Assembly (NCBI GenBank): GCA_020627965.1
Contig: JAHDFX010000011.1
Span: forward strand, 1-51,564
DNA: 51,564 nucleotides
Reading direction: 5' to 3'
DNA from: Saprospiraceae bacterium
Lineage (GTDB): Bacteria; Bacteroidota; Bacteroidia; Chitinophagales; Saprospiraceae
A program made the translations under genes and the position numbers. Under the pieces are notes generated by a model, which made no database searches, had not been told where the DNA came from, and saw nothing but the letters and a program-made list of their open reading frames with translations. Positions 9,906 through 12,678 of this stretch are shown here, piece after piece; positions within the stretch are counted from its first letter, which is position 1; every line of letters begins with the position of its first letter.

Positions 9906-10790
9906 ATGAAAAAACTAATACACATTATCCCATTATTATTCATTGCCCCATTTATTTTCGGACAAGACCTGTGTTCCGGTGCTGAAATTGGCGATGGTTC
10001 ATTAGCCTGGTTAGTGCCTGCAACGCCAGATGTTGAAGACTCTGTCTATATTTATATTGATGTATCACAAGATCCAAATTGTGATATACTTGTAGGAGAT
10101 CCCGGCCCCTTTTATATCTGGACCTGGTCACCAGTACAACCAGATGACAATATTGGTACCTGGAATAACTCTGGCGATAATGCTGCACTTGAGCAAGTAG
10201 ATGGTAATATCTGGCGTTTTGGGATGATTCCGACAGAATTTTATGGTGTGGAAGCTGAAGAAATTTATGATAAAGGTTTTTGCTTTCTTATCAAAAAAAG
10301 TGATGGTGGAACAGGGGGCGACTGCTCAGCAGCAGGAGGTGATTTCAAAACAACGGATATTTTTCTGAATGTACCTTCACCTTTTGTCTTTGAACGAAAA
10401 GTGTATAGCTTTCCTGATGTTGTTGCTGATGATACGCTTTATACACAACTAGATGATGTGTTTACTGTGTTTTACAATAATAATATAGAAGAGAAGCCTA
10501 CTATGCAGAATGTGGAAAATATTTTTGCTTATATGCGTGTAATAGGCGATGATGGACAAACATACAATGTATCTTCATTGAGTCAGGTGGGGAATAATCC
10601 GGCATTAGAATTGGTCAATGATGGAACTGGCATATTTTCTCTGACTATGATTCCTGAGGAGTTTCTGGCAGATGTATTACCAGCGGGCGTAAGTCCTGCA
10701 CGATTACGTTTCCAATTGATTACTTGGCCTCTATGTGGCTCTGACTGTGCTGTGGATGGAGATTTTTACTTTGTTATTGGATGTCCGTAA
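9906..10790 (+). CDS. Secreted two-domain beta-sandwich protein of the SusD locus (DUF4961-like?)
   Basis: A 294-residue protein with a signal peptide (MKKLIHIIPLLFIAPFIFGQ, cleavage near residue 20) and no lipobox cysteine. Two similar modules follow, about residues 25-160 and 170-294. Each starts with a strand in a D-x-V/L-Y context, has an aromatic W/F-rich centre (IWRFGMIPTEFYG in module 1, IFSLTMIPEEFL in module 2) and ends with a CxxxGGDF- or CAVDGDFYF-like hairpin. This recalls the Ig-like/starch-binding modules found with SusD proteins, such as SusE/F or DUF4961. Pairs of cysteines (GDCSAAGGDF, LCGSDCAVDGDF) may form disulfides. No sorting domain is present. It lies 46 bases after the DUF5004-like gene. 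The role is probably substrate binding at the cell envelope (inference). Confidence 0.7.
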   Translation: MKKLIHIIPLLFIAPFIFGQDLCSGAEIGDGSLAWLVPATPDVEDSVYIYIDVSQDPNCDILVGDPGPFYIWTWSPVQPDDNIGTWNNSGDNAALEQVDGNIWRFGMIPTEFYGVEAEEIYDKGFCFLIKKSDGGTGGDCSAAGGDFKTTDIFLNVPSPFVFERKVYSFPDVVADDTLYTQLDDVFTVFYNNNIEEKPTMQNVENIFAYMRVIGDDGQTYNVSSLSQVGNNPALELVNDGTGIFSLTMIPEEFLADVLPAGVSPARLRFQLITWPLCGSDCAVDGDFYFVIGCP

Positions 10791-10872: not shown

Positions 10873-10995
10873 TAAAAAAAGACAGACTCTCCAGCCTGTC
10901 TTTCACAAAAATACATTAAACCCTAACTTATACTGACTAAACCATGCCAATATAAACAACTTAACTTTTGAAAAGTGTTTGTTGTTTTTGATTGA
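10873..10995 (-). ncRNA. Candidate small RNA, minus strand
   Basis: Read on the minus strand, a -7 box TACATTTG (complement of 11001-11008) is followed by about 120 bases without a useful ORF, then a terminator hairpin (CTGTCTTT/AAAGACAG arms at 10896-10903 and 10878-10885) and a run of seven Ts. A second hairpin (ACTTTT/AAAAGT with outer AACAA/TTGTT pairing) can form near the 5' end. The longest ATG frame inside has about 15 codons. The direct repeats at 11030-11051 lie just upstream of the promoter. The terminator has its T-run on the minus strand only, which is the main reason for calling the unit in this direction. Confidence 0.4.
10878..10903 (-). terminator. Rho-independent terminator, minus strand
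   Basis: Arms 10878-10885 (AAAGACAG) and 10896-10903 (CTGTCTTT), with two more possible pairs towards the loop. On the minus strand the hairpin is followed by T7; on the plus strand only a three-base T stretch follows, so it works better for minus-strand transcription. Confidence 0.6.
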
Positions 10996-11029
10996 CAATA
11001 CAAATGTAGGGTCAAATCAGGAAATATGC

Positions 11030-11051
11030 ACGTCGTTTTTGACGTCGTTTT
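11030..11051. promoter_or_regulatory. Direct repeat ACGTCGTTTT x2 with 12-base period (LytTR-like site)
   Basis: ACGTCGTTTT occurs at 11030-11039 and again at 11042-11051, one helical turn apart. Two direct half-sites with about 12-base spacing are the layout bound by LytTR-type response regulators. The assignment is inferred from layout, not from a matched consensus. The site lies about 20 bases upstream of the minus-strand -7 box at 11001-11008, and about 300 bases before the gene at 11347. Confidence 0.4.
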
Positions 11052-11346
11052 ACACAATCTTACAACGAAAATTGGCTAAAAACATCGGTCTCTCTTTTTT
11101 GCCCAAAAATACAACAAACTGATTATCAGTTCTTTTAACAAAATTTTAAGACTATTACTTACATTGTTTTTTGTACCACATTTGCATCACTCTTACACTT
11201 GGATGACATTAAAAAGACATAAAAAAATTACTTAAAAAGGCATTTTAGCTGTGTGTAGTCATTCTAAATCAGTTCTTTTGCCGAAAAAAGCGATACATTT
11301 AGTACTTTGTGAACTACTTAGTATTTGTAATAAACAACACGAGTAT
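11052..11346. other. AT-rich intergenic leader before the protease-unit genes
   Basis: This stretch contains no convincing ORF. A GTG at 11251 is in frame with the next gene but would add a 32-residue cysteine-containing tail unlike a natural N-terminus. A weak -7-like CACATTTG lies at 11177-11184. No hairpin terminator or repeat was recognised. Confidence 0.4.
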
Positions 11347-12678
11347 ATGGGACTTTTTGACAGATGGTTTGGAGGGGGAAAAAACTTTAATCGCCCTGAT
11401 GTCCAATTTGGACGATATAGCGACCATTATCGTACGAAAGAACAGGAAGATTTCTGGAAGACGGCTGTAACCAGTTATGAGAAGCAGGAATACATGGAAT
11501 CTTTTCGTGCATTTTTTCAGTCATTGCAAGCAAATGGGCAGGATAGTATTCAATTTGAAGAAAAAGACAATGCGCTTCATTTTGAATTATTGCAAGGGTC
11601 TAAAAAAGTACATGGCTTTGCGAATAACGAAAAATTTGCAGCTCATGCTAAAGTCGTTCATGCTGATCGTCTTAATGTAGGTTTTATGCGTCGGCTTCTC
11701 GAACACAATCACGCCTTGAAATATTCCCGGCTGAGCCTTGACGATGATAACAATATCTGTATTAAGTTCGATTCTTACATTATTGATGCTTCTCCTTACA
11801 AATTGTATGCTGCATTGAAAGAGTTGTCTACCTCTGCTGACAAGCAGGACGATTTGCTGGCAGATGAATTTGATATGCTTCATCAAATAGATAGCCGGCA
11901 TATTATAGATTTGCCTGAAGAAGAGAAAAAAACCAAATACAGTTATATTAAAAAGTGGACAGATTCGACCTTCACCAGGATTGAGGAATTAGACCCCAAT
12001 AAATTTAAGATTGGGATTAATTATCTTTTATTGAACCTGATCTATAAAATGGATTATCTGGTTGTTCCCGAGGGCGTCATGATGGAAACTTTAGAAAAAT
12101 GCCATCATCTTTTCTTTGCGCCAGATGGAAAGACCCCGCAAGAAAAATCGCAAAGTGTGGTTAAGGAACTTAAAGAAATGGTAGAACGCCCAGAACAGAA
12201 TTTTCATAAAGAAATGTATCGGGTACCTTCCACTTTTTCTATTACTGCTCAGGCAGAACATGCCCAACTAGCAGCCATGATAGAGGCTGAGATGCCTTCA
12301 ATGGATTGGTATCTGCAAAATGAATACTTTGATTTGGCAGCCGCTATTGCCGGCTTTGTTTCCGGGCATTTTTTATTTTATTTCCGCCTGCCACAGCCAG
12401 ATAGAGAGTATTTACATTTATTATTTGAAATTTTAGAACCTGAGTATTTCAAAGCATTGGGCTTTGAACCCCACTATTATAACAAGGAAACTAAGGAGTT
12501 TGATAAATCAGCCATTAAAAACGAAATCAACAATATTGCGAAAGCCAATAAAGAAAGATTTCCAAAACTGGCCCCTGATACTAAAGAACTGAAATATACT
12601 AATTTACCAGAATTTGCACGATCATTTCTATTTATGGTCAAAGCATTGGATATGACCTCTGAGAAAAAAGCTAAATAA
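11347..12678 (+). CDS. Cytoplasmic protein with a YbjN/CesT-like domain, partner of the trypsin-like protease
   Basis: A 443-residue soluble protein with no signal peptide. ATG 11347 (MGLFDRWFGGGKNF) is chosen; the short amphipathic start is common in cytoplasmic Bacteroidota proteins. A region at about residues 50-165 has the helix-strand-strand-helix order LLEHNHALKYSRLSL, CIKFDSYIIDASPYKLYAAL, KQDDLL. This lines up by eye with the C-terminal domain of the neighbouring protease (LLRQNDKIEGLTLSI, SLLIFDRHLNAETGEKLFQYF, YYDNIL). The fold suggested is that of type III secretion chaperone (CesT)/YbjN-like proteins. The remaining ~270 residues are mostly helical and not recognised, with an aromatic segment FVSGHFLFYFRLP near residue 345. 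The protease gene starts 31 bases downstream, so the two probably form an operon and act together. Confidence 0.75.
   Translation: MGLFDRWFGGGKNFNRPDVQFGRYSDHYRTKEQEDFWKTAVTSYEKQEYMESFRAFFQSLQANGQDSIQFEEKDNALHFELLQGSKKVHGFANNEKFAAHAKVVHADRLNVGFMRRLLEHNHALKYSRLSLDDDNNICIKFDSYIIDASPYKLYAALKELSTSADKQDDLLADEFDMLHQIDSRHIIDLPEEEKKTKYSYIKKWTDSTFTRIEELDPNKFKIGINYLLLNLIYKMDYLVVPEGVMMETLEKCHHLFFAPDGKTPQEKSQSVVKELKEMVERPEQNFHKEMYRVPSTFSITAQAEHAQLAAMIEAEMPSMDWYLQNEYFDLAAAIAGFVSGHFLFYFRLPQPDREYLHLLFEILEPEYFKALGFEPHYYNKETKEFDKSAIKNEINNIAKANKERFPKLAPDTKELKYTNLPEFARSFLFMVKALDMTSEKKAK

Follow-up and report, generated by a model that had tools for sequence, protein, structure and literature searches.

The stretch of DNA analysed here, referred to as the window, comprises 51,564 nucleotides of a Saprospiraceae genome (G000, 6.4 Mb, 97.8% complete). 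In the window a plus-strand gene occupies positions 9906-10790, and the next plus-strand gene starts at 11347 (an earlier start is also listed). On the minus strand between them lies a putative small RNA gene (10874-10995), with which the first of these genes converges and from which the second diverges. The transcript would be about 120 nt long, its start being placed by inference a few bases past the -7 box TACATTTG (TAnnTTTG; 11001-11008, minus strand). It would begin with a variable 5' domain with hairpins (10949-10995, minus strand), which occurs in two layouts across five genomes, and end with a near-invariant 3' domain of 75 nt (10874-10948, minus strand), consisting of a linker of about 44 nt and an intrinsic terminator of 12 pairs (10877-10904, minus strand). 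The sequence-only reading of this DNA had described a minus-strand -7 box at 11001-11008, followed by about 120 non-coding bases and by a terminator with its T-run on the minus strand alone, and all of this was confirmed, the terminator stem running from 10904 to 10877. This was the sole terminator-like site between 10000 and 12000, but as 0.9 such sites are expected in shuffled sequence, the terminator taken alone is weak evidence.

No tRNA was detected in the window by ARAGORN, and neither the window nor any of the four relatives gave an Rfam match that reached the gathering score. At E values up to 10 there were eight chance-level matches to Rfam (E 1.7-9.8); the Bacteroides BTnc201 model gave 16.5 bits (E 3.5), its gathering score being 105. 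The possibility of a hidden peptide was rejected because the RNAs of the five genomes have no closed reading frame in common. The longest frames are 31, 22, 2, 2 and 20 amino acids long, and the frame that opens at an ATG in the linker passes through the terminator and ends differently across the five genomes.

Using blastn, matches to the RNA (E <= 0.001) were found in five of 60 genomes, the window's own included, and all five belong to the window's genus. The covariance model R1, which represents the 75-nt 3' domain, matched five of the six genomes of the genus with E values of about 1e-19 (8.9e-20 to 3.2e-19), and in the genus genomes searched with R1 the RNA was a single-copy gene. The genome without a match, G004, is 69% complete, and the RNA was present in all four genomes that are at least 90% complete. 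Over ten species pairs the 3' domain differs at 0-3 positions per pair, the window and G005 being identical. At fourfold-degenerate sites of the genes next to the RNA, agreement was 40/90, 30/90 and 31/78 in the gene of the MGLFDRW protein and 45/171, 56/167 and 87/198 in a presumably ppiD-like gene, i.e. 26-44%, and in the 60 nt past the terminator ungapped identity was 22-33%. The sequence around the RNA is far less conserved than the RNA itself. By this comparison the promoter, the two upstream sites described below and the 75-nt 3' domain with the terminator were shown to be under strong selection.

The 124 nt from 10995 to 10872 fold better than shuffled sequence (z -3.28), as do all five RNAs of the genus (z -2.87 to -6.36). 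When the terminator was left out, the z values were -2.45 for the window, -1.71 for G003, -4.00 for G005, -6.38 for G001 and -6.06 for G002. By these values three genomes have clear 5' hairpins and two have weak ones, the 5' fold being modest in the window itself and weak in G003. In the predicted folds, the 5' domains of G005, G001 and G002 form two hairpins, and that of G003 forms an outer helix (UGUCAAU/AUUGGCA) enclosing an inner hairpin. In the window RNA, the first 58 nt fold as in G003 (-12.5 kcal/mol); when the linker is included, a different best fold is predicted, which engages part of the linker bases. In four of the five RNAs the predicted fold leaves most of the linker open. Covariation is nearly absent, with paired changes at one of 29 pairs in a consensus drawn over mixed layouts. 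The terminator stem, in which paired changes could be accommodated, is identical in all five genomes, and the loop differs in one of them. A comparison of relatives for hairpin-preserving changes, which had been proposed as a check, thus revealed a conserved sequence and this single paired change; support for the RNA gene comes from sequence conservation and not from covariation.

The canonical promoter of the Bacteroidota consists of TAnnTTTG at -7 and TTTG near -33. The -7 box of the RNA gene, which reads TACWTTTG in all five genomes, matches the canonical form, and the place where the canonical TTTG would be expected is occupied by GTGC. The hexamer GTGCAT (11026-11031, minus strand; 17 nt ahead of the -7 box), present in four of the five genomes (CTGCAA in G003), was read as the -33 element. 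The same arrangement recurs before other genes: CGTGCA-N18-TAnnTTTG was found 19 times in six genomes, as compared with one occurrence of the reversed control. Four of the 19 matches are this gene; for seven of the other 15, a forward ORF of at least 50 codons follows within 130 nt, and five are inside one repeated coding family. GTGCAT was seen at the -33 place, for instance, ahead of an apparent rimP gene and of what we take to be a toxin-antitoxin pair. Among 86 promoter-like boxes, this gene not included, TTGC was the commonest 4-mer at -23 (4/86) and GCAT came second at -21 (4/86), which are small numbers. As far as such patterns can tell, the window's genus may use TTGCAT/GTGCAT as its -33 element.

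Farther upstream, TGTAAGA occurs at two fixed places in all five genomes. The promoter-proximal copy belongs to TGTAAGAT (11057-11064, minus strand), a candidate regulator site that starts at -56 relative to the -7 box and keeps this place in all five genomes. The second copy (11191-11197, minus strand) is at -189 in the window and at -188 in the other four genomes, the distance between the sites being 132-133 bp in the genus. None of 2000 shuffled sets contained TGTAAGA twice in every one of the five upstream regions, and TTGTAAGA and TGTAAGAT were the only 8-mers common to all five 250-nt upstream regions (null mean 0.008). A small palindrome, CTGATAATCAG (11119-11129), has GAT and CAG columns that are invariant in the five-genome alignment. 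TGTAAGA does not generally precede -7 boxes: in 432,564 bases a box was found 20-119 nt on from five of 55 sites, the corresponding figure for a control word being three. The pattern TGTAAGAT-N46-50-TAnnTTTG gave 23 matches in the six genomes, five of them this gene, as against seven for the reversed pattern, and 20 of the 23 were inspected at the level of the locus. Of the inspected promoters, only those of the RNA gene (5/5) and a tandem in G005 (119 nt) had another TGTAAGA in the 300 nt upstream. It is possible that the TGTAAGAT promoters of the genus constitute the regulon of one regulator.

The direct repeat with a 12-base period that had been reported at this locus, ACGTCGTTTT-TG-ACGTCGTTTT, is exact and extends from 11030 to 11051. 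Exact 10-mers at period 12 form two clusters in the window, compared with a mean of 0.08 (maximum 1) in 50 Markov-shuffled copies; if periods 10-30 are taken together, the window has four clusters and five shuffled copies have 1-3, which makes a repeat of any period hardly remarkable. The sequence-only reading considered the repeat LytTR-like. A LytTR-regulated small RNA would agree with the location of a direct repeat upstream of the promoter, as at LytTR sites, and with the eight LytTR domains of the window genome. LytTR sites are, however, described in the available part of the source as 9-bp repeats at a spacing of 11-13 bp (PMC6193735), whereas the two 10-mers found here are 2 bp apart. 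Nor is the repeat kept as a repeat in the relatives; its promoter-proximal copy overlaps the -33 element GTGCAT, the other copy is only loosely kept, and in G001 and G002 CGT units are 11 apart. On account of the spacing, the lack of conservation as a repeat and the overlap with the -33 element, the LytTR reading fails. Regulation of the RNA through LytTR sites is very improbable, and the conserved candidate regulator sites are TGTAAGAT at -56 and TGTAAGA at -188/-189, rather than the direct repeat.

Two other explanations would deny the RNA a gene of its own. In four relatives the gene behind the terminator, which we take to be ppiD-like, points in the same direction as the RNA, at a distance of 293 nt in G003, 826 nt in G005, 521 nt in G001 and 336 nt in G002; the location of the unit opposite the flanking genes, as first described, therefore applies to the window genome only. 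This gene order would suit a leader or attenuator, the RNA then being what remains when a longer transcript that reads into the ppiD-like gene is terminated early. In the window, however, the corresponding side is taken by an unrelated gene on the opposite strand and the RNA is unchanged, its 75 nt being identical to those of G005; since the ppiD-like gene is absent there and the RNA is intact, the unit does not need this gene in the window. The distances between RNA and gene also vary widely, and a leader function is in our estimate quite unlikely, so that the RNA was taken, on the basis of gene order, as its own unit. According to the other explanation there is no RNA gene, and the locus contains a chance pair of promoter-like and terminator-like sites, or a terminator only. 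Such sites taken alone are indeed expected by chance, and it is the conservation in relatives that raises the feature above this level. With 75 nt near-invariant and with fixed upstream sites in five species, the absence of an RNA gene is extremely improbable. The regulated minus-strand small RNA of the sequence-only reading is strongly supported, its promoter, upstream elements, 3' domain and terminator being present in five of the six genomes of the genus. As judged from the sequence, the locus is very probably a real, regulated small RNA gene, apparently restricted to one Saprospiraceae genus, which has an unusually invariant 3' domain and a control region of two sites.

On the upstream side, G003, G005 and the window have the MGLFDRW gene as neighbour, and G001 and G002 have what is presumably a beta-lactamase-like gene. 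The MGLFDRW gene (11347-12678 in the window), which thus diverges from the RNA gene in three of the five genomes, codes for a conserved protein of 443 amino acids (MGLFDRWFGG...), for which no Pfam match was found at E 0.01.

Bacteroidota are described, in the available part of the source, as lacking the classical small RNA chaperones (PMC11697453). In agreement with this, no match to Hfq was found in the window genome (97.8% complete); the control for this search gave a signal in 5 of 14 genomes. In the Bacteroidota, post-transcriptional control is little described outside Bacteroides, and no paper on a Saprospiraceae small RNA was found in the literature searched, as judged by title and start of the abstract. 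The Bacteroides thetaiotaomicron RNA GibS, as presented in the available part of its report (PMC7366714), is likewise an intergenic Bacteroidota small RNA with its own promoter and without Hfq, and it combines a conserved single-stranded stretch, hairpins and an intrinsic terminator, as predicted here. It differs in length (145 nt, here about 120), in the location of the conserved part (a seed at the 5' end, here 3') and in its promoter (the non-canonical PM2, in contrast to the canonical -7 box here), and its targets are known, whereas the searches run here yielded no target and no Rfam match. The FopS family of Bacteroides, according to the corresponding part of its description (PMC11697453), likewise shows a terminator hairpin behind a single-stranded stretch, together with a canonical -7 promoter, and it has been deposited in Rfam. 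The FopS RNAs are, however, 65-70 nt long, carry a 5' seed and are present in 14 copies per genome, whereas here there is one copy per genome and an extra 5' hairpin domain. Both GibS and FopS are described as pairing near start codons through single-stranded seeds (PMC7366714, PMC11697453).

On balance we consider it probable that the RNA is a regulated, Hfq-independent small RNA, which is composed of a variable 5' hairpin domain, an invariant and mostly single-stranded linker and a terminator, and which pairs with mRNAs. The primary sigma factor of the Bacteroidota would start a transcript of about 120 nt, and a regulator binding TGTAAGA at -56, perhaps also at -188, would switch its transcription. 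The 5' hairpins would stabilise the RNA, and the linker would pair with one or more mRNAs, probably near their start codons by analogy with GibS and FopS in Bacteroides, and without Hfq.

Several searches for pairing partners were performed in the genus. A 21-nt antisense pattern, with up to three mismatches allowed, detected the gene itself only (one match in each of five of the six genomes). Duplexes of the linker with 322 start regions had a mean energy of -12.27 kcal/mol, slightly worse than the -12.87 kcal/mol of a reversed copy, in a test that is weak because the 432,564 bases covered are a small part of two genomes. With blastn at E up to 10, 130 matches were obtained in the six genomes, five of which were the gene; no target signal was seen in the 25 of the other 125 that were inspected, and for at least three of these 25 the local realignment fell on a stretch other than that of the match. 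Many of the blastn matches were at linker positions 39-58, in keeping with the presence there of TATTTTTG, which is itself a -7 box pattern. The start of the linker has a complement in a terminator of G002 and of G004 (L091 and L104, around 1501-1525; E 0.08 and 0.58); both look like one shared locus, and the complementarity is probably due to chance.

The conservation of the terminator stem and loop exceeds what a pairing seed needs, which counts against pairing with mRNAs, and the main rival to this reading is a protein-binding decoy. In that case the invariant 75 nt, together with their stem and loop, would be the surface for a protein that is titrated or scaffolded, and not an mRNA seed. 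A decoy is favoured by the invariance of the stem noted above and by the failure of the antisense pattern and of the 322 start regions to provide a pairing target. The linker, on the other hand, being open in most of the predicted folds, has the usual layout of a pairing small RNA, and no known protein-binding family was matched in Rfam; we regard the decoy as a real, if rather unlikely, alternative to the pairing RNA. A single-copy RNA that is far more conserved than the proteins encoded nearby offers in the Saprospiraceae a direct way to targets, to RNA-binding partners and to a new TGTAAGA-binding regulator.

At E 0.1, model R1 matched 30 of 298 genomes of the family, five of them in the genus itself. 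The best match outside the genus had an E value of 3.6e-4 per genome, which over 298 genomes is not convincing. Of the 21 outside loci that were inspected (L009-L029), 13 were discarded as ordinary gene terminators, starting no more than 30 nt past the end of a same-strand reading frame, and in two (L015 and L019) part of the linker recurs, but the 140 nt upstream contain no TAnnTTTG. In phages, plasmids and viral contigs no match to the RNA was found, one of the searches having used a single exact 17-mer. The sole inspected outside locus with TAnnTTTG and without a same-strand frame nearby was L020; its match to R1 (29.0 bits, E 0.018 per genome among 298) is not significant alone. The match in L020 lies in a non-coding gap with TTTG-N20-TAAGTTTG and a terminator, the putative RNA unit being at 1485-1640 on the minus strand. 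By blastn, this unit is present in four of the six genomes of genus g79, with 94-95% identity in G084, G241 and G284 (L129-L132; three of the four rows were aligned), and the linker of the g79 RNA carries GTTAGG-TTAATGTATTTT. The g79 unit is likely to be a second small RNA in another Saprospiraceae genus; its linker partly resembles that of the window RNA, of which it is a possible distant relative.

In G241, a second match (E 0.0067; L133, 1495-1541) runs antisense to a leader whose gene codes for a protein with CHAP and peptidoglycan-binding domains; in this leader, 17 contiguous bases directly before the start codon are complementary to the g79 RNA. The orthologous leaders of G084, G284 and G178 (L136-L139 set) have 12, 11 and 11 contiguous complementary bases, and CCTAACTAACT and CCTAACTAACTTTTAAT are each kept in all four orthologous leaders; in the leaders of a paralogue the complementarity amounts to 9, 7 and 7 bases in three genomes and to 6 in the fourth. 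Two equally strong matches (E 0.0069 and 0.0071) represent one locus shared by G284 and G084, before another gene, where the match overlaps the end of a presumably Clp-like gene. The CHAP leader is a candidate target of the g79 RNA, with two cautions: these equally strong matches elsewhere, and the possibility that the leader is conserved for reasons unrelated to the RNA. In the six genomes of the window's genus, partial matches only to the CHAP protein were found, in G002, G003 and G004. A small RNA class common to the Saprospiraceae, with a GUUAGG...UUAAUGUAUUUU linker that pairs with cell-wall hydrolase mRNAs at their start codons and with a two-site TGTAAGA switch, would be suggested by the terminator-ended g79 unit in four of six genomes, by its similar linker, by the complementary CHAP leader and by the retention of CCTAACTAACT in all four leaders; we nevertheless consider so wide a class unlikely.

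Two of the TGTAAGAT promoters are common to G001 and G002, and they precede what are presumably a peptidase-like gene and a lipoprotein-like gene. Behind a TGTAAGAT promoter that the same two genomes share (L122 and L125, around 1500-2100), no forward ORF of 50 codons is present for more than 500 nt, and this stretch is a candidate for a long leader or for another small RNA.
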